DNA from: Azospirillum brasilense
GTDB lineage: Bacteria; Pseudomonadota; Alphaproteobacteria; Azospirillales; Azospirillaceae
Length of the DNA stretch: 64,000 bases
Direction of reading: 5' to 3'
Assembly: GCF_007827795.1 (NCBI RefSeq)
Contig: NZ_VITI01000001.1
Coordinates: forward strand, 868,001 to 932,000
The translations under genes and the position numbers were made by a program. The notes under the pieces were generated by a model. The model was given only the letters and a program-made list of their open reading frames with translations, was not told where the DNA came from and searched no databases. Positions within the stretch are counted from its first letter, which is position 1, and the number at the start of each line of letters is the position of its first letter. Below are positions 24,866-31,564 of the stretch, in pieces.

Positions 24866-25978
24866 ATGATCCGTGCGAAGCTGGCTGTGACCGCCGCCGC
24901 CGTCGCCTTGGGGGCCGGCCTGTGGGCCGGGGCCGCCCAGGCCGACATCACCATCGCGCTGGCCGGTCCGATGACCGGCGCCGCCGCCGCCTATGGCGAG
25001 CAGACCCGCGCCGGCGTCGAGGCCGCCGTGGCCGACATCAACGCCAAGGGCGGGCTGCTGGGCCAGAAGCTGGTCCTGACCATCGCCGACGACGCCTGCG
25101 ACGCCAAGCAGGCGGTGGCCGCCGCCAACAAGCTGGTCGGCCAGAACGTCGCCGCGGTGATCGGCCATGTCTGCTCCGGCGCCTCGATCGCCGCCTCCAA
25201 CGTTTATGGCGAGGAGGGGATCGTGATGATCTCCCCCACCGCGACCAGCCCGCAGCTCACCGACCGCGGCCTGAAGAACGTCTTCCGCGTCTGCGGCCGC
25301 GACGACCAGCAGGGCGAAGTGGCGGCCAAGCTGATCGCCGACCGCTACAAGGGCAAGAAGGTCGCCATCGTCCACGACAAGCAGGCCTACGGCCAGGGCC
25401 TCGCCGACGACGTGAAGCGCCGCCTGAACGCCGCCGGCATCACCGAGGCCGCTTTCACCAGCATCACCGCCGGCGAGAAGGACTATTCCGCCCTCGTCAC
25501 CCGGCTGAAGTCGGACGGGGTGGACGTGCTCTACTACGGCGGCTACGACCAGGAGCTGGGCCTGATCGCCCGCCAGGCGGCGGACCAGCAGTTCCGCCCG
25601 CAGATCATCGGCGCCGACGGCATCCAGCCGCAGTCCTACTGGAACATCGCGGGTGACACGGCGGAAGGCACGCTGTTCACCTTCTCCCCCGACCCGCAGC
25701 GCAACCCCGCCGCCAAGCCGGTGGTGGAGGCCCTGCAGGCCAAGAACATCCGCACCGACGGCTTCACCCTGTTCGCCTACGCGGCGGTGCAGACCTACGC
25801 CGAGGCCGTGCAGAAGGCCAACAGCGCCAAGTCCGACGCCGTGGCGAAGGCGCTGCGCGCCGGCCCGTCCTTCGACACGGTGGTCGGGTCGCTGTCCTTC
25901 GACGACAAGGGCGACCTGAAGCAGCCGGGCTACGTGTTCTGGGCCTGGAAAAACGGCGAGAAGGTCCAGGTGGACTGA
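24866..25978 (+). CDS. Branched-chain amino acid-type ABC transporter substrate-binding protein
   Basis: A 370-residue periplasmic binding protein of the LivJ/LivK (peripla_BP_6) family. The signal peptide ends near AAQA-DI (residue 27). The mature start ITIALAGPMTGAAAAYGEQ and the VIGHVCSGASIAAS ligand loop are typical, and the C-terminal YVFWAWKNGEKVQVD closes the fold. It captures leucine-type amino acids or amides. No permease or ATPase genes lie next to it, so the membrane part is elsewhere. A good AGAGAGGAAT precedes the ATG and a strong terminator follows. Confidence 0.9.
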   Translation: MIRAKLAVTAAAVALGAGLWAGAAQADITIALAGPMTGAAAAYGEQTRAGVEAAVADINAKGGLLGQKLVLTIADDACDAKQAVAAANKLVGQNVAAVIGHVCSGASIAASNVYGEEGIVMISPTATSPQLTDRGLKNVFRVCGRDDQQGEVAAKLIADRYKGKKVAIVHDKQAYGQGLADDVKRRLNAAGITEAAFTSITAGEKDYSALVTRLKSDGVDVLYYGGYDQELGLIARQAADQQFRPQIIGADGIQPQSYWNIAGDTAEGTLFTFSPDPQRNPAAKPVVEALQAKNIRTDGFTLFAYAAVQTYAEAVQKANSAKSDAVAKALRAGPSFDTVVGSLSFDDKGDLKQPGYVFWAWKNGEKVQVD

Positions 25979-26007
25979 GTCGATCCGGCCGATTCGGCGG
26001 AAGGGAA

Positions 26008-26035
26008 GGCGGGGCCGCGGTGCCCCGCCTTTTTT
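26008..26035 (+). terminator. Intrinsic terminator after the amino acid binding protein gene
   Basis: GGCGGGGC (26008-26015), loop CGCGGT, GCCCCGCC (26022-26029), then six T. A perfect 8-bp stem; it separates the binding-protein transcript from the replication region that begins 20 bases later. Confidence 0.9.
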
Positions 26036-26056
26036 CTGTCCGGCGGATTCCCGGAT

Positions 26057-26073
26057 GGTCGGCGATTGCCAAA
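26057..26073 (+). repeat. Iteron copy 1 (distal)
   Basis: GGTCGGCGATTGCCAAA, identical over its core to the copies upstream of repA, about 600 bases beyond the repA stop. A GATTC (GANTC) site at 26046-26050 lies just before it. With iterons 2 and 3 it marks the far edge of the replication region. Confidence 0.85.
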
Positions 26074-26164
26074 GGCCGGATGAGAACCTTTTCCCCGTCC
26101 CGGTGTTTGCGCTGGGGTAACCACACACCGCCAACCAACACCGCCAATGGGCAGGGAGGCCGCG

Positions 26165-26566
26165 ATGCATCGTCACGCCGGACGCCGTTCGCGCAATCGC
26201 AGGACCGCCGGAATCATCCTGTGCGCCGGCTTTCTCGGCCTCGGCGCCTGCGCCTCGCTGGCGCCGCCGCGCAGCGCGGAGCCCGCGCCCGGAGCGGTGG
26301 AGGCGCTGAACGGCATGGTGAAGGGAGCCTGCAACCGTCCCGTCGCCTCCGTCCTGGCCGGGGAGGGGATTCCGGTCGGGCAGTTCCGGGCCGCGATCTA
26401 CAGCGAGCAGCGCACCGGGCCGAGCGCGCGGGTGTCGCAGTACGAGATGTGGCTCTATCCGCGCGACAAGGCCGGCGTCCTCATCATCAAGATGGACGAG
26501 ACCTGCCGCCCCATGCAGGTCTACACGCGGGATGGCGGCAATGTGCAGGCCTTCAAGGCGGGATAG
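26165..26566 (+). CDS. Small lipoprotein of unknown function
   Basis: A 133-residue protein with a lipoprotein signal: basic start MHRHAGRRSRNRR, hydrophobic IILCAGFLGLG and lipobox ending at Cys29 (LGLGAC). The rest (EALNGMVKGACNRPVASVLAG, FRAAIYSEQRTG, YEMWLYPRDKAGVLIIKMDE) resembles no family I know. GGGAGGC precedes the ATG at 26165; the ATG at 26147 has no such site. It lies between iteron 1 and iterons 2-3 and points toward the converging repA gene, so its transcription may run into the replication region. A weak hairpin with T5 (26566-26590) follows. Confidence 0.7.
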   Translation: MHRHAGRRSRNRRTAGIILCAGFLGLGACASLAPPRSAEPAPGAVEALNGMVKGACNRPVASVLAGEGIPVGQFRAAIYSEQRTGPSARVSQYEMWLYPRDKAGVLIIKMDETCRPMQVYTRDGGNVQAFKAG

Positions 26567-26612
26567 GCGAAGCTCCGCTTGCCCGTTTTTGGGACGCTGA
26601 AGCTTCGGCCTC

Positions 26613-26663
26613 TGGCAATCGCCGACTCCGATTCCGGAGCCGGGCGGGTTGGCAATCGCCGAC
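26613..26663 (-). repeat. Iteron copies 2 and 3, just after the repA stop
   Basis: TGGCAATCGCCGAC at 26613-26626 and TTGGCAATCGCCGAC at 26649-26663 are reverse-orientation copies of the repA iteron, starting 16 bases beyond the repA stop. Copy 2 runs into GACTC, and GATTC follows at 26630, so two GANTC sites sit between the copies. Confidence 0.85.
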
Positions 26664-26678
26664 TTGCCCGCCGCCGAC

Positions 26679-27611
26679 TTACCCGCGCGCGGCGGGGAGG
26701 ACTTTGCGCTCTGGAATCGGCGGGGGCGACGGGTAGAGCAGCACCCCGGTGTCGGAGAACTCCACCCGAGCGGCCTCGTAGACGGCCAGCGCCAGATCCA
26801 GCGCCACCCGGAACTCCGGCTTGAAGTGCTTCAGCTCCTTGTAGCCGCCGCCGAACTGCGTGAAGAGCGCCTTCCAGGTCACCGGAATCGGGTCGCGCAG
26901 CACGTGCAGCCGGTAGGCCAGCCAGACATAGACATCGATCGCCATCGAACAGCCGCCGATGTGGCGGATCGCCGGCTCCCAGATCGGGACGGGGGAGCGC
27001 TTCAGCGCGGCGAAGAAGGTTTCCGAAAGCTGCACCGTCTCGCGCCACAGCGTGCCCTGGCCGTCGTCGTCGCGCAGGCGGATGCCGCCGTTGACGATGT
27101 TCTCCTTGGCGAAGCCCTCCGCCCCGTCCTTGTCCCAGAAGAAGGTCAGGCGGCACAGGTTGATGCGGGTCGCCTGCTCCTGCACCGCCTTGTAGGTGCT
27201 GCCGCCCGCCGACACGCCCATGCGGTCGAGCCAATCGTTCATCGAGCGGCCAAGCTCGATCTCGCGGCTGTTGTCCTGGATGGCGCGGGTCTGGAGATAG
27301 AGCAGGATCAGCCGCGCCTTGGCGCCGTAGGGGACGCCGACCGGCATCAGGCTGCCGTCGCGCTTGCGCTCCTTGCCCGGCTCGACCAGCAGGGTGACGC
27401 GGCCCTGGTCGCGGCGCCATTCGGCGTCCGGCGCCAGCTTCCGGTGGGGCAGGCTGGTCAGGCAGAATCCGGAATAGGTGATGCCCAGCGCGTTGGACTC
27501 ATCTTCCAGCACCGCCGCCGCGACATCGACAACGCTGGCGCGCTTCGGGTCCACGAGGTTCCGCGCCTCGCGCCGGCCATGCGTCATGATGAGTTGGTGC
27601 ACGTCGCCCAT
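26679..27611 (-). CDS. repA: Plasmid-type replication initiator RepA (RepA_C family)
   Basis: A 310-residue protein resembling RepA initiators of alphaproteobacterial plasmids such as the pTAR type. Family-like segments are GITYSGFCLTSLPHRKL (43-59), VPYGAKARLILLYLQTRAI (93-111), IELGRSMNDWLDRMG (118-132), RINLCRLTFFW (149-159), and the winged-helix-like MAIDVYVWLAYRLHVL (223-238). Such proteins bind iterons, melt the origin and repress their own genes. ATG 27609-27611 has GGGGGGA upstream; an ATG at 27650 is possible. Eight iterons lie upstream and three downstream. No parA or parB is adjacent. It is surrounded by chromosomal housekeeping genes, which is unusual for this initiator. Confidence 0.85.
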   Translation of the reverse strand: MGDVHQLIMTHGRREARNLVDPKRASVVDVAAAVLEDESNALGITYSGFCLTSLPHRKLAPDAEWRRDQGRVTLLVEPGKERKRDGSLMPVGVPYGAKARLILLYLQTRAIQDNSREIELGRSMNDWLDRMGVSAGGSTYKAVQEQATRINLCRLTFFWDKDGAEGFAKENIVNGGIRLRDDDGQGTLWRETVQLSETFFAALKRSPVPIWEPAIRHIGGCSMAIDVYVWLAYRLHVLRDPIPVTWKALFTQFGGGYKELKHFKPEFRVALDLALAVYEAARVEFSDTGVLLYPSPPPIPERKVLPAARG

Positions 27612-27658
27612 AGGTCCCCCCGTCCATTCTGCCTGCAGTCGACCATGCACCGCCGGGA

Positions 27659-27972
27659 GAGTCCATTTGGCGATCGCCGACGAGGCTAATTGAGACCTAA
27701 TTGCTGGAGTCTATTTGCTAGGTCGGCGATTGCCTGGGGACGACTCGGGGGTGCGTCGGCGATTGCCAGAAGACTCGTCGGCGTTCGCCAAGGGATCTTG
27801 TGGGAATCATCGGTGACTCGTGACGACTCGGGCATTGGTCGGCGATTGCCAAGGCGGGGCGGGGCAGGCGAGTCGCGACTCGGGATTTCATAAGGTGGTC
27901 TTGTCGATGTCTGGCCGGATGGTCGGCGATTGCCAAAGCGTCGCCGCGGACCGGCTTGGCAATCGCCGACTC
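27659..27972. promoter_or_regulatory. Cluster of ten GANTC (CcrM-type) methylation sites
   Basis: GANTC occurs at 27659, 27707, 27742, 27772, 27804, 27815, 27825, 27870, 27877 and 27968. At about two-thirds G+C roughly one is expected in 314 bases. Several touch iterons: the site at 27968 overlaps iteron 10 and the one at 27772 abuts iteron 7. CcrM methylates GANTC once per cell cycle in many alphaproteobacteria, so the cluster could report whether the origin has just replicated. Confidence 0.75.
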
Positions 27973-28044
27973 CAGGGTCTTTCTAAAGCCCTTTCTCCTC
28001 CAGGGAGAGGGGGCATTGCCGCATGGTCGGCGATTGCCAAAGCG
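27667..28044. repeat. Iteron array upstream of repA (eight copies)
   Basis: Core GTCGGCGATTGCCAA. Plus-orientation copies: 27721-27734, 27755-27768, 27777-27791 (variant GTCGGCGTTCGCCAA), 27837-27854, 27921-27938, 28025-28044. Reverse copies: 27667-27681 (variant with palindromic GGCGATCGCC) and 27956-27970. The two best long copies (27921 and 28025) share ATGGTCGGCGATTGCCAAAGCG apart from flanks. Spacing is irregular (22 to 84 bases). The core is nearly palindromic (GGC-GATT-GCC), unlike many asymmetric iterons. This is what is expected of a RepA-bound origin and copy-control region. Confidence 0.88.
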
Positions 28045-28161
28045 GCACCTCTCATGACGGGCACCCCTGCCTTGCGGGACCATGCGGGCACGAAACGGCA
28101 GCGCGGCTGTTTTACGCTTGGCCTCCGCGGTGATGGGGGCGTGCTTTGGGAGATCCGCGAG

Positions 28162-28740
28162 ATGAGCGACGAGGGTTTCACGGACCGCGTGATCGACGGC
28201 GTGAACGGGCTGGACGGAACCGCCCACCGCAAGGCCGTCGCCCTGGGCGTGGGGGCGCCGGCCCTGCGCGACGGGCTCCAGATGCCCAGTTCCCGTATGG
28301 TGCTGATGCCGGCGCTGGCGGCGCTGTGGGCCGCCGGGCTGGGTATGGAGAAGCCGGGCTGGTCGCGCCTCGCCCGGCAGGGGCTGATGGCCATCGCGTT
28401 GGGGACGGTGGCCGGCAAGGGGATCAAGCGCGTCGTCTGCCGCGCCCGCCCGAACCAGGGCCGCGACCCCAGCCGCTGGGGCAAGGCCGACGGCAAGCAC
28501 GCCTCCTTCCCCTCCGGCCACGCCATCAACGTGTCGGCGCTGACCATGGCGGTCGGGCTGAACCGCGGCCTCTCCCCGGCGACCATGGTCAGCCTGGGCT
28601 TCGCCGCGGCGGTGGGCTGGTCGAGCCTCGCCACCGAGCGGCACTGGGCGTCCGACTACGCCGCCGGCATGGCGACCGGCGTTCTGGCCGGTCTGGCCGC
28701 CAAGGCGCTCGACGGCTGGGCGGAGGACCGGCTGTCCTGA
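28162..28740 (+). CDS. PAP2 family phosphatase
   Basis: A 192-residue membrane protein with the three PAP2 motifs: KGIKRVVCRARP, SFPSGHA, and a closing ERHWASDYAAG with the conserved His and Asp. It removes phosphate from lipid phosphates such as undecaprenyl pyrophosphate or phosphatidate, probably on the periplasmic face. GGGAGATC precedes the ATG at 28162. The upstream 120 bases end the iteron region, so its promoter may be touched by RepA. It converges on glnD with a 22-base gap. Confidence 0.87.
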   Translation: MSDEGFTDRVIDGVNGLDGTAHRKAVALGVGAPALRDGLQMPSSRMVLMPALAALWAAGLGMEKPGWSRLARQGLMAIALGTVAGKGIKRVVCRARPNQGRDPSRWGKADGKHASFPSGHAINVSALTMAVGLNRGLSPATMVSLGFAAAVGWSSLATERHWASDYAAGMATGVLAGLAAKALDGWAEDRLS

Positions 28741-28762
28741 GGTCCGGCTTTCACCACCGTCC

Positions 28763-31564
28763 TCAGCCCGCCGGATCGGCGAGCGCGTGCAGCAGCCGTT
28801 CGCGGATCTGGGCCAGCTTGCTCTCGTGGGTGACCTTCAGGCCGAAGACGTCCTTCACATAGAAGACGTCGATGGCCTTCTCGCCGTAGGTTGAGATCTT
28901 CGCCGACGAGATTTGCAGGGTCAGGTTGGTCAGCGCGCGGGTCAGGTCGTAGAGCAGGCCGGGGCGGTCGCGCCCGTTGACCTCGATCACCGTGTGGGTG
29001 GTGGAGGCGTTGTTGTCGATCAGCACGCGCGGCGGCACGTGGAAGACGCGGGTGCGGCTGGCGTGCGGGGCCTTGCGCTTGGTCAGGTCGTGCAGCGGCT
29101 TCAACTGGCCGGACAGCACCTTCTCGATCATCACCGACAGCTTGGCGAGCTTGTCGCCGCTCTCGAAGGCGCCGCCGCCCGCCGCGTCCTGCACGGTGAA
29201 GACGTCCAGCGCCATACCGTTGGTCATGGTGAAGATGCGGGCGTCCACGATGTCCGCCCCCGCCGCCGCCAGTGCCCCGGCGAGGCGGGAGAACAGGCCG
29301 TGGTGGTCGGTGGCGAAGATCGTCACCTCGGTGATCGCCCGGCCGCGGTCGATGCGCGTGTTGACGGTCAGCGGGCGTTCGTCGCGCAGCGCCTCGCGGA
29401 CCAGCCGCGCCTGCCGGCCCAGCGTCTCCGCGTCGAAGGCCAGCCAGTAGGCGGGGTAGCCGAGCGCGATGTGCCGCTCGAAATCGGCGTCGTCGAAGTC
29501 GGACAGCTCGGCCCGCAGCGCCGCCTGGGCGGCCTGGATGCGGCGCCCGCGCCCTTCGACCGACAGGCCGCCGGACATCACCTCCTCCGAGCGGTTGTAG
29601 AGTTCGCGCAGCAGCGTGGCCTTCCAGTTGTTCCAACGCTGCGGCCCGACCGCCCGGATGTCCGCCACGGTGAGAACCAGCAGCAGCCGCAGCCGCTCCG
29701 GCGACTGGACGAGCGAGACGAAGTCGCGCACCGTCTTGTCGTCCTCCAGGTCACGCTTGAAGGCGGTGTAGGACATGGCGAGGTGCCAGCGCACCAGCCA
29801 GGCGACCGTCTCCGTTTCCTCCGCCGTCAGGCCGAGCCGCGGGCACAGCTTCTCCGCCACCCGCGCGCCGAGGATGGAATGGTCGCCGCCGCGGCCCTTG
29901 GCGATGTCGTGCAGCAGCACGGCGACGTAGAGCGCGCGCCGCGACACCACCTTGTGGATCACCTCCGACGACAGCGGCAGCTCGTCGGTCAGCTCGCCCA
30001 TCTCGATCTTGTGCAGGATGCCCAGCGCGAACAGCGTGTGCTCGTCCACCGTGTAGACGTGGTACATGTCGTACTGCATCTGCGCGACCACCCGGCCGAA
30101 GTCGGGGATGAAGCGGGCCAGCACCCCGGCCTCGTTCATGCGGCGCAGCGTGATCTCCGGGTCCTTGCGGCCGGTCAGGATCTCCAGGAACAGCCGGTTG
30201 GCCTCCAAGTCGGCGCGCAGCTTCGGCCCCACCACCGACAGCGAGCGCGTGATGGCGCGCAGCGCGTTGGGGTGGATGTCGATATCGTTCTGCTGGGCGG
30301 TGTGGAACAGCCGGATCATGTCCAGCGGCTCGTCCTTGAACTGGCGGTCGCTGCGGACGTTCAGCCGCTCGCCGTCCACCACGAAGCCGTCCACGTCCTT
30401 GCGGCGGGCCAGCGCGGCCAGCCGCAGGATGTTGAACTTGGGCGGGCGCTTCGATTCCGCCTCCAGCGCCGCGCAGAAGATGCGGGTCAGGTCGCCGACA
30501 TCCTTGGCGACCAGGAAGTAATGCTTCATGAAGCGCTCCACGCCCTTGGTCCCGGCGTGGTCGGTGTAGCCCATGCGGTTGCCGATCGACGTCTGGACGT
30601 CGAAGGTCATCCGGTCCTCCATGCGACCGGTCAGGTAGTGCAGGTGGCAGCGCGCGGTCCACAGGAAGTTCTGCGCCTTGGCGAAGCGCTGCGCCTCCTC
30701 CGGCAGCAGCACCTTCTTGCCGACCAGATCGTCCACGTCCTCGACCCGGTACAGGTACTTGGCGATCCAGAACAGCGTCTGCAGGTCGCGCAGGCCCCCC
30801 TTGCCGTCCTTCAGGTTGGGTTCCAGCACATAGCGGCTGTCGCCCAGCTTCAGGTGGCGGTTGTCGCGCTCGGCCAGCTTGGCCTCGACGAACTCCGGCC
30901 CGGTGCCGGCCACCACCTCGCGGTCGAAGCGGCGGCGCAGCTCGGTGAACAGCTTGCGCGGACCCCAGAGGTAGCGCGACTCCAGGATGGCGGTGCGGAT
31001 GGTCACGTCGGCCTTGGATTGGCGGATGCAGTCGTCGACGCTGCGCACCGCGTGGCCGACCTTCAGCCCGAGGTCCCACAGGATGTAGAGCATGTACTCG
31101 ACCACCTGCTCCACCCGCGGGGTGCGCTTGTAGGGCAGCAGGAACAGCAGGTCGATGTCGGAGAAGGGGGCCAGCTCACCCCGGCCATAGCCGCCGGTGG
31201 CGACGATGTCGAACACCTCGCCGGAGGTCGGGTTGGGGGTCGGGAAGATGTGGGTGACCGTGAGGTCGGCCAACGAGCGCACCACCCCGTCGGCGAGGTA
31301 GCAGTTCTGCCGCACGCAATCCTCGCCCGATCCCTTGGCCTCGAAGCGGGCGCGCACCTCCGCCCGCCCGTCGTTCAGCGCGCCGCGCAGTCGGGCGATC
31401 AGGGCGGGGCGCAGCTTGTCGCCGGTTCCATGCTCCGCCACCAGCGTCTCCAGGTCCTCCGCCAGCTTGCGCCGGGACAGGATCGCGCGCTTGTTGGGGA
31501 TGTTGGCTGTGCCGGCGTCCTTGGCGTCGGACGCGTCGGCGGAGGCGGCGCGGGTGGAGAGCAT
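28763..31564 (-). CDS. glnD: [Protein-PII] uridylyltransferase/uridylyl-removing enzyme
   Basis: A 933-residue nitrogen sensor that adds UMP to PII proteins under nitrogen limitation and removes it when glutamine is high. Domains: nucleotidyltransferase with GGYGRGELAPFSDIDLLFLLP (about 126-146), GlnD-specific helical part, HD hydrolase domain with VAVLLHDIAKGRGGDHS, and two C-terminal ACT domains (FATDHHGLFSRLAGALA and GRDRPGLLYDLTRAL). ATG 31564 is chosen; a TTG two codons earlier is possible. In Azospirillum this protein links ammonium to nitrogenase control. Confidence 0.96.
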   Translation of the reverse strand: MLSTRAASADASDAKDAGTANIPNKRAILSRRKLAEDLETLVAEHGTGDKLRPALIARLRGALNDGRAEVRARFEAKGSGEDCVRQNCYLADGVVRSLADLTVTHIFPTPNPTSGEVFDIVATGGYGRGELAPFSDIDLLFLLPYKRTPRVEQVVEYMLYILWDLGLKVGHAVRSVDDCIRQSKADVTIRTAILESRYLWGPRKLFTELRRRFDREVVAGTGPEFVEAKLAERDNRHLKLGDSRYVLEPNLKDGKGGLRDLQTLFWIAKYLYRVEDVDDLVGKKVLLPEEAQRFAKAQNFLWTARCHLHYLTGRMEDRMTFDVQTSIGNRMGYTDHAGTKGVERFMKHYFLVAKDVGDLTRIFCAALEAESKRPPKFNILRLAALARRKDVDGFVVDGERLNVRSDRQFKDEPLDMIRLFHTAQQNDIDIHPNALRAITRSLSVVGPKLRADLEANRLFLEILTGRKDPEITLRRMNEAGVLARFIPDFGRVVAQMQYDMYHVYTVDEHTLFALGILHKIEMGELTDELPLSSEVIHKVVSRRALYVAVLLHDIAKGRGGDHSILGARVAEKLCPRLGLTAEETETVAWLVRWHLAMSYTAFKRDLEDDKTVRDFVSLVQSPERLRLLLVLTVADIRAVGPQRWNNWKATLLRELYNRSEEVMSGGLSVEGRGRRIQAAQAALRAELSDFDDADFERHIALGYPAYWLAFDAETLGRQARLVREALRDERPLTVNTRIDRGRAITEVTIFATDHHGLFSRLAGALAAAGADIVDARIFTMTNGMALDVFTVQDAAGGGAFESGDKLAKLSVMIEKVLSGQLKPLHDLTKRKAPHASRTRVFHVPPRVLIDNNASTTHTVIEVNGRDRPGLLYDLTRALTNLTLQISSAKISTYGEKAIDVFYVKDVFGLKVTHESKLAQIRERLLHALADPAG

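Follow-up and report, generated by a model that had tools for sequence, protein, structure and literature searches.

Does the main chromosome of Azospirillum brasilense hold a second, plasmid-type origin of replication, and does the cell make use of it? The textbook view assigns one origin to each bacterial main chromosome. The question is raised by a 64,000-nucleotide stretch of contig NZ_VITI01000001.1 (assembly GCF_007827795.1), referred to here as the window, in which repA, a gene for a RepA_C-family initiator, stands with iteron repeats among core chromosomal genes. Coordinates without a prefix are those of the window, which corresponds to C1:868001-932000 of its host contig C1 (1,006,098 bp) in a 56-contig draft genome of 6.24 Mb. 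An earlier note had offered two alternatives, a captured second origin or a chromosome that starts its replication at the RepA origin; the evidence supports the former and not the latter. We lean towards the view that the locus is a domesticated auxiliary origin, coupled to CcrM and present besides a predicted DnaA-type oriC.

The repA gene occupies 26679..27611 on the minus strand (ATG at 27609-27611) and encodes 310 amino acids plus a stop. Its product matches PF04796 with 81.9 bits (8.9e-23; curated Pfam cut-off 26 bits), confirming by profile search the RepA_C assignment made from the letters alone. The predicted fold is of the Rep type with two winged helices, its best match being RctB, the Vibrio chromosome 2 initiator, over domains 2-3, with RepE also matched. 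A RepA profile found no match among PDB sequences at E up to 1, none was found in PHROGs or NCBIfam, and PLSDB holds no record at least 60% identical to the window RepA.

With up to two mismatches allowed, the window holds 11 copies of the repeat GTCGGCGATTGCCAA, every one within 26058-28040, against a mean of 0.21 and a largest count of 2 in 100 dinucleotide shuffles. Nine of the 12 exact copies of GTCGGCGATTGCC in the genome fall inside the 2-kb repA stretch. The arrangement agrees with the earlier count of eight iterons upstream of repA (27667-28040) and three downstream (26058, 26612, 26649), so that multiple direct repeats stand beside an initiator gene, as in iteron-controlled origins, with two of the eight upstream copies inverted. 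The upstream set, together with ten GANTC sites and an AT-rich element, makes up the core origin at 27659..28040. Its exact copies lie at 27838..27852 (+), 27922..27936 (+), 27956..27970 (-, inverted relative to its neighbours) and 28026..28040 (+); single-mismatch copies lie at 27667..27681 (-) and 27755..27769 (+), and two-mismatch copies at 27722..27736 (+) and 27777..27791 (+). Downstream, an exact copy at 26649..26663 (-) and a one-mismatch copy at 26612..26626 (-) are accompanied by a distal exact copy at 26058..26072 (+). Spacings between iteron starts of 22, 33 and 55 bp are multiples of the helical turn, whereas those of 34, 61, 70 and 84 bp are not. Beside the iterons, at 27682..27721 on the minus strand, lies an AT-rich element with the repeats GCAAATAGACTCC, GCAATTAGGTCTC and AATTAGCC (repA strand), its GC content of 42.5% in 40 bp being the lowest of 27551-28199; we infer that it is the unwinding element of the origin.

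The ten GANTC (CcrM-type) sites cluster at 27659..27972 (27659, 27707, 27742, 27772, 27804, 27815, 27825, 27870, 27877 and 27968), forming the densest 400-bp stretch of the window. Over 400 kb of the genome, the highest counts per 400 bp are 11 at the predicted oriC and 10 at the RepA iteron region, followed by 6; over 1.95 of the 3.12 Mb of the A. canadense contig they are 11 and 10 at the same two places, followed by 7. Of 34 RepA loci examined, some of them on other contigs, 32 have an upstream cluster of at least five sites per 400 bp; L050 and L057 are the exceptions.

Compared with eight relatives, the iterons and the AT-rich element are each 93% identical and the GANTC sites outside iterons 85%, compared with 57% for the remaining spacer. 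RepA is 98% identical to its A. canadense counterpart, while trpS reaches 94%, murJ 87%, livK 72% and the histidine kinase 62% (aligned part). The ratio of nonsynonymous to synonymous substitution rates (dN/dS) for RepA is 0.034-0.059 against five orthologues of the brasilense/canadense group, and 0.130 and 0.145 against A. soli and A. halopraeferens. For glnD it is 0.021-0.179, equal to or below that of RepA in some of the same pairs, which makes RepA one of the most constrained genes here, though not the only one. Judged from these alignments, the repA module is under strong purifying selection. It is also kept while its surroundings rearrange: glnD adjoins repA here and lies at 252 kb, past oriC, in A. 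canadense, and A. halopraeferens has no window neighbour within 10 kb of repA. Breakpoints recur near repA (25978-28763), on the glnD side in A. canadense and A. rugosum, on the livK side in A. soli and on both sides in A. halopraeferens.

Contig C1 carries dnaA at 717.8 kb, 177 kb from repA, the sole DnaA_C match of the genome in a profile search; a single-contig family genome, by comparison, shows a second, weaker DnaA_C match (76 bits, G089:C1:1154738-1154932) besides its normal dnaA. The genes trpS, murJ, PAP2 (28162-28737), glnD and mutS flank the repA locus, each by Pfam match, while hrcA (50164) and dnaJ (57005) were recognised by eye in the sequence. From the histidine kinase (22020) to glnD (31570) the order is kinase, LivK-type gene, a 139-amino-acid open reading frame without Pfam match, repA, PAP2 and glnD, and none of these genes belongs to a second partition system. 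The nearest parA- and parB-like genes seen, read by eye, lie at C1:827.2-828.9 kb, beside the predicted oriC and about 66 kb from repA. That oriC is predicted from four DnaA-box-like sites, with one mismatch each, clustered at C1:814.9-815.2 kb, about 80 kb from the RepA origin (C1:895.7-896.0 kb); parS is present as an exact site at 824,637 and a one-mismatch site at 826,620. A plasmid-type origin and a DnaA-type origin, the latter by prediction, therefore appear intact on one replicon, here as in A. canadense. What the earlier note had described thus holds: a RepA/iteron origin amid core chromosomal genes (found again in many independent assemblies), the flanks trpS, murJ, glnD and mutS (by Pfam; hrcA by eye only), the absence of adjacent parA/parB, and a place on the main chromosome, whose dnaA, parAB-like genes, parS and DnaA-box cluster share the contig. 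In the close relatives A. brasilense, A. tabaci and A. isscasi, RepA is 99-100% identical and the neighbours are unchanged, and the neighbour set is identical in seven separately assembled relatives (L035-L041). One of these records, L041 (NZ_QOKW01000003.1, 'Roseomonas genomospecies 6' ATCC 49961), has the window neighbours at 84-99% identity in the same order (PAP2 left out), which suggests that the record is an Azospirillum whose name is mistaken or outdated.

Whether the chromosome starts at repA can be approached through strand polarity. In A. canadense, the 3.12-Mb contig has repA at 3078.8 kb (origin 3078.4-3079.8 kb), dnaA at 217 kb, five one-mismatch DnaA boxes at 114.7-115.0 kb and exact parS sites at 103.3 and 105.3 kb. 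DnaA-box clusters (at least three in 600 bp) are not unique there, two more occurring towards the terminus (1.731 and 1.769 Mb); 114.9 kb is preferred as oriC because parS, the GANTC peak and a nearby polarity change accompany it. Cumulative GC skew in A. canadense is weak near the origin, its flat minimum stretching across the whole interval between repA and dnaA, and the sign of the skew at fourfold sites switches repeatedly in that region. Since plain GC skew is too weak there, a polarised octamer, GGGCAGGG, was used instead, picked on the A. canadense arms only, with the origin region unused in the choice. It is the most polarised octamer of that genome (67/3 on one arm, 2/69 on the other), and it is likely an FtsK guide resembling the FtsK-orienting polar sequences (KOPS), and it fits the E. 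coli KOPS consensus, GGGNAGGG. Over the A. canadense arms the octamer counts are 136 to 5, and a second strand change at about 1.70 Mb marks the terminus.

The octamer changes strand at 843.2-849.5 kb on C1 (two-log-unit range 826.7-850.2 kb), past which the contig is only 66% polarised over 32 sites, and at 82.7-83.5 kb in A. canadense. The change thus lies 46-53 kb from repA here and 124-125 kb from it in A. canadense (assumed circle). A lipoferum-clade genome, in which repA is at 791 kb and dnaA at 1108 kb, agrees: among the first 100 forward copies of the octamer, the dense run begins at 997 kb. By the octamer test, with the change away from repA in both genomes, repA is not the main origin, and neither a start of the chromosome at the RepA origin nor a polarity inversion at repA, as the earlier note had allowed, is borne out; dnaA, the parAB-like genes, parS and the cluster of DnaA boxes and GANTC sites share the contig, and the change is elsewhere. 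The change is not exactly at the predicted oriC either, a placement there being worse by a log-likelihood difference (dlnL) of 6.1 here and 19.0 in A. canadense; it is off by 28-34 kb and 31-32 kb respectively, on the repA side in both, and the segment from oriC to the change is colinear between the two genomes. This offset of about 30 kb on the parS/repA side could reflect a further, unrecognised origin of replication, an old inversion or a parS-linked effect.

The locus recurs widely in the family. Counts here and below are from among the matches listed in a survey of 82 family genomes, 45 of them Azospirillum. At least 68 of the 82 have a RepA match. The brasilense type (89-100% identity) is found in 20 of the 45 Azospirillum genomes and a lipoferum type in 17, the latter assigned by score and, in 16, by a 323-residue open frame, the five fetched being near-identical in the tree. 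A third type occurs in all seven genomes of another genus, g10, with the two fetched 100% identical. Both repA and dnaA lie on one contig in 12 brasilense-type genomes, our own included, and in eight lipoferum-type and six g10-type genomes; the locus is therefore not that of a chromid, whose plasmid-type system sits off the dnaA replicon, here and in 25 others spanning three RepA lineages. In the 12 brasilense-type genomes the gap between repA and dnaA is 169-187 kb in nine and 177 kb in our own, with A. canadense at about 258 kb and G057 at about 26 kb; the gaps for A. canadense, G028 and G057 cross contig ends on the assumption of circles. Neighbours at the fetched lipoferum and g10 loci differ from those of the window, and their iterons, read by eye, are CCGTGGGGAAAAGCGGC-like (lipoferum) and GGACTTTACCGGC (g10), with the same layout of iterons, GANTC sites and AT-rich element. 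One g10-genus chromosomal origin (L230, G077:C1) has a perfect TTATCCACA DnaA box, unlike the window origin. Genome G050 carries a brasilense-like RepA (78%) with GTCGGTGATTG iterons on the 15-kb C32 (L047, L193) and a lipoferum-type RepA on the 492-kb C44 (L232), and the 7,541,676-bp Azospirillum contig G046:C1 holds several RepA copies, reflecting fused replicons or an assembly join.

A tree of 44 sequences places the brasilense type in one clade (98/90), groups the g10 type with an Indioceanicola plasmid (100/100), and has the lipoferum type enclosing plasmid p7 of A. argentinense (clade 100/98) and joining an Acidiphilium plasmid (96/97); support for the deep branches is weak (76/83). From an input of 48 locus rows plus the window, five locus rows, whose given coordinates were not open (L050 with an in-frame stop), were dropped, the tree is without L039, L040, L049 and L001, and the label 'plas' for L047, L048, L002 and L197 was assigned from contig size. 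Given three RepA lineages, three iterons and different plasmid relatives, three separate captures of RepA origins are the simplest reading, although a single old capture with later escapes may also account for the pattern.

The proposed mechanism can be stated step by step. RepA would bind the iterons upstream of repA, thereby also repressing its own promoter, melt the AT-rich element (27682-27721) and load the helicase. After copying, a renewed start would be held back by the hemimethylated state of the GANTC sites, in the way that Dam sites act at Vibrio ori2. Bound to the downstream iterons and a few distant sites, RepA would titrate or handcuff the initiator. Such distant sites exist: exact RepA iterons far from any rep gene form an inverted pair at C4:61064-61145 (69 bp from start to start), in the gap where a histidine-kinase gene and another gene converge, and a lone copy lies at C5:99723 in another convergent gap. 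A pair of this inverted kind, with 69-70 bp from start to start, is seen in six of 12 relatives, in five of them at an estimated 0.48-0.60 Mb from the origin, and as an exact match it is missing in the other six, A. canadense included. Eight of the 12 scanned relatives are assembled in 10 contigs or fewer; of the 77 exact iteron 14-mers in these eight, all but one copy, on G057:C9, fall on the contig that carries dnaA. The distant copies are possibly titration sites. A role for RepA as regulator of one particular gene was considered and rejected, as the extra iterons sit in convergent intergenic gaps and not in promoters.

Several observations weigh against an auxiliary origin that is used. 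No DnaA box with at most one mismatch lies in 26000-28200, where one two-mismatch box stands at 26117; such boxes are common, not universal, in iteron-controlled origins. Placing the polarity change at repA is worse by a dlnL of 9.9 here and 18.5 in A. canadense, so any firing there is not the dominant long-term pattern, and between repA and oriC a local polarity signal such as a second active origin would leave was sought and not seen, on small counts. GANTC clusters are common at RepA loci and may therefore be inherited with the family rather than adapted; their continued conservation in the chromosome is the relevant point. In eight brasilense-type, nine lipoferum-type and one g10-type genome, mostly drafts, repA and dnaA lie on different contigs, so the chromosomal place of those 18 copies is a matter of extrapolation, and eight of the 45 Azospirillum genomes have neither chromosomal type among the matches listed. 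Read-depth or transposon data for Azospirillum were absent among the literature matches listed. The absent polarity change also suits a module that is intact as an origin but does not fire in the chromosome, being out-competed or copied passively by forks from oriC, with RepA kept for titration, plasmid incompatibility or regulation. We hold this the second most likely reading, though rather unlikely in itself, even though the extra exact iterons in convergent gaps away from rep genes (an inverted pair and singles) fit it and V. cholerae NSCV2, with its silent functional ori2, is a precedent in the available part of PMC6284228; the AT-rich element and the GANTC sites, whose conservation comes close to that of the iterons, would be superfluous for a RepA that only represses or titrates, and the inverted pair is not an exact match in half of the 12 relatives.

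A reversal of roles, with RepA as the main, long-standing origin and the DnaA region secondary, seems very improbable. The extreme conservation of RepA and its origin and the imperfect fit of the polarity change to the DnaA-box cluster would favour it, but the change at 843.2-849.5 kb is well apart from the RepA origin at 895.9 kb (82.7-83.5 against 3078.6 kb in A. canadense), its distance is constant to oriC and not to repA, and the parAB-like genes and parS lie beside the DnaA-type region. That the locus is a recently integrated plasmid or a decaying functionless relic is scarcely credible: the family is one of plasmid initiators, yet the low dN/dS, the conserved iterons and AT-rich element, the presence of orthologues (89-100% identical) in 20 of the 45 Azospirillum genomes and the core flanks without adjacent plasmid cargo speak otherwise. 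A plasmid origin misjoined to the chromosome during assembly, conceivable in a 56-contig draft, is negligible as an explanation, the same neighbours recurring in seven separate assemblies and repA sharing a contig with dnaA in 12 brasilense-type genomes. What the sequences show is the anatomy of the locus, its conservation, its position on the contig of dnaA and a strand-polarity change that lies elsewhere. RepA binding, firing, methylation control and an auxiliary role as what selection would keep are inferred parts of the reading we hold most likely, that of a domesticated auxiliary origin.

Known systems help to place such an origin. RctB of V. cholerae (658 amino acids) drives a separate secondary chromosome through ori2, whereas the window RepA (310 amino acids) is encoded on the main chromosome, which has a DnaA-type origin by prediction. 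A further parallel is offered by V. cholerae NSCV1 and NSCV2 and by the Agrobacterium dicentrics, which likewise combine a DnaA-type and a plasmid-type origin on one chromosome. In the accessible parts of the sources, both origins of the fused NSCV1 chromosome fire and ori2 of NSCV2 is silent yet functional (PMC6284228), both origins of dicentric Agrobacterium chromosomes remain active (PMC12153318), and firing of the plasmid-type origin in Agrobacterium is promoted by CcrM (PMC11514494). Those cases are whole-replicon fusions in single strains or stocks, with second partition genes essential in Agrobacterium, whereas the window case is an origin module only, flanked by core genes, without par genes of its own and present in many species of at least two genera. 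RepA_C is also the initiator family of plasmids in Azospirillum and other Rhodospirillales (e.g. AZO_p6, A. lipoferum 4B), with a best identity of 57.7% among the matches listed; these plasmids often lack parA next to repA, as in the window, but they are separate replicons. CcrM methylates GANTC, and the repABC origins of Alphaproteobacteria are plasmid-type and GANTC-rich like the window origin (PMC6090056, as far as available); the window module differs from them in that it lacks its own partition genes and has iterons and an initiator of another family. The purple bacterium R. centenum, which has one chromosome and is plasmid-free, is reported to show no clear skew, its origin being guessed near dnaA in the part available of PMC2890560. 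Among the literature matches listed, with subscription papers and preprints outside their scope, a RepA origin on an Azospirillum chromosome is undescribed; the main text of the Azospirillum genome paper PMC3245306 mentions none of replication, RepA, dnaA, oriC or GC skew, and the available portion of PMC13342612 names Azospirillum twice, both times for the DNA share of extra replicons.

Tentatively, and with more doubt than for the locus itself, Azospirillaceae main chromosomes may be natural two-origin chromosomes that use, besides a DnaA-type oriC, a CcrM-timed RepA origin in each cycle, recruited from plasmids at least three times with private iteron codes. If that is true, a plasmid-derived second origin would be a stable, selected part of bacterial main chromosomes and not a fusion accident. 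The Azospirillaceae chromosomes would offer a natural system for studying why two initiators are kept and how the timing of two origins is arranged when they share a molecule (probably through CcrM in this case), a question that read depth in the cultivable A. brasilense would address directly. They would also show a route by which plasmid origins turn chromosomal, one fixed in many species and apparently recruited repeatedly.

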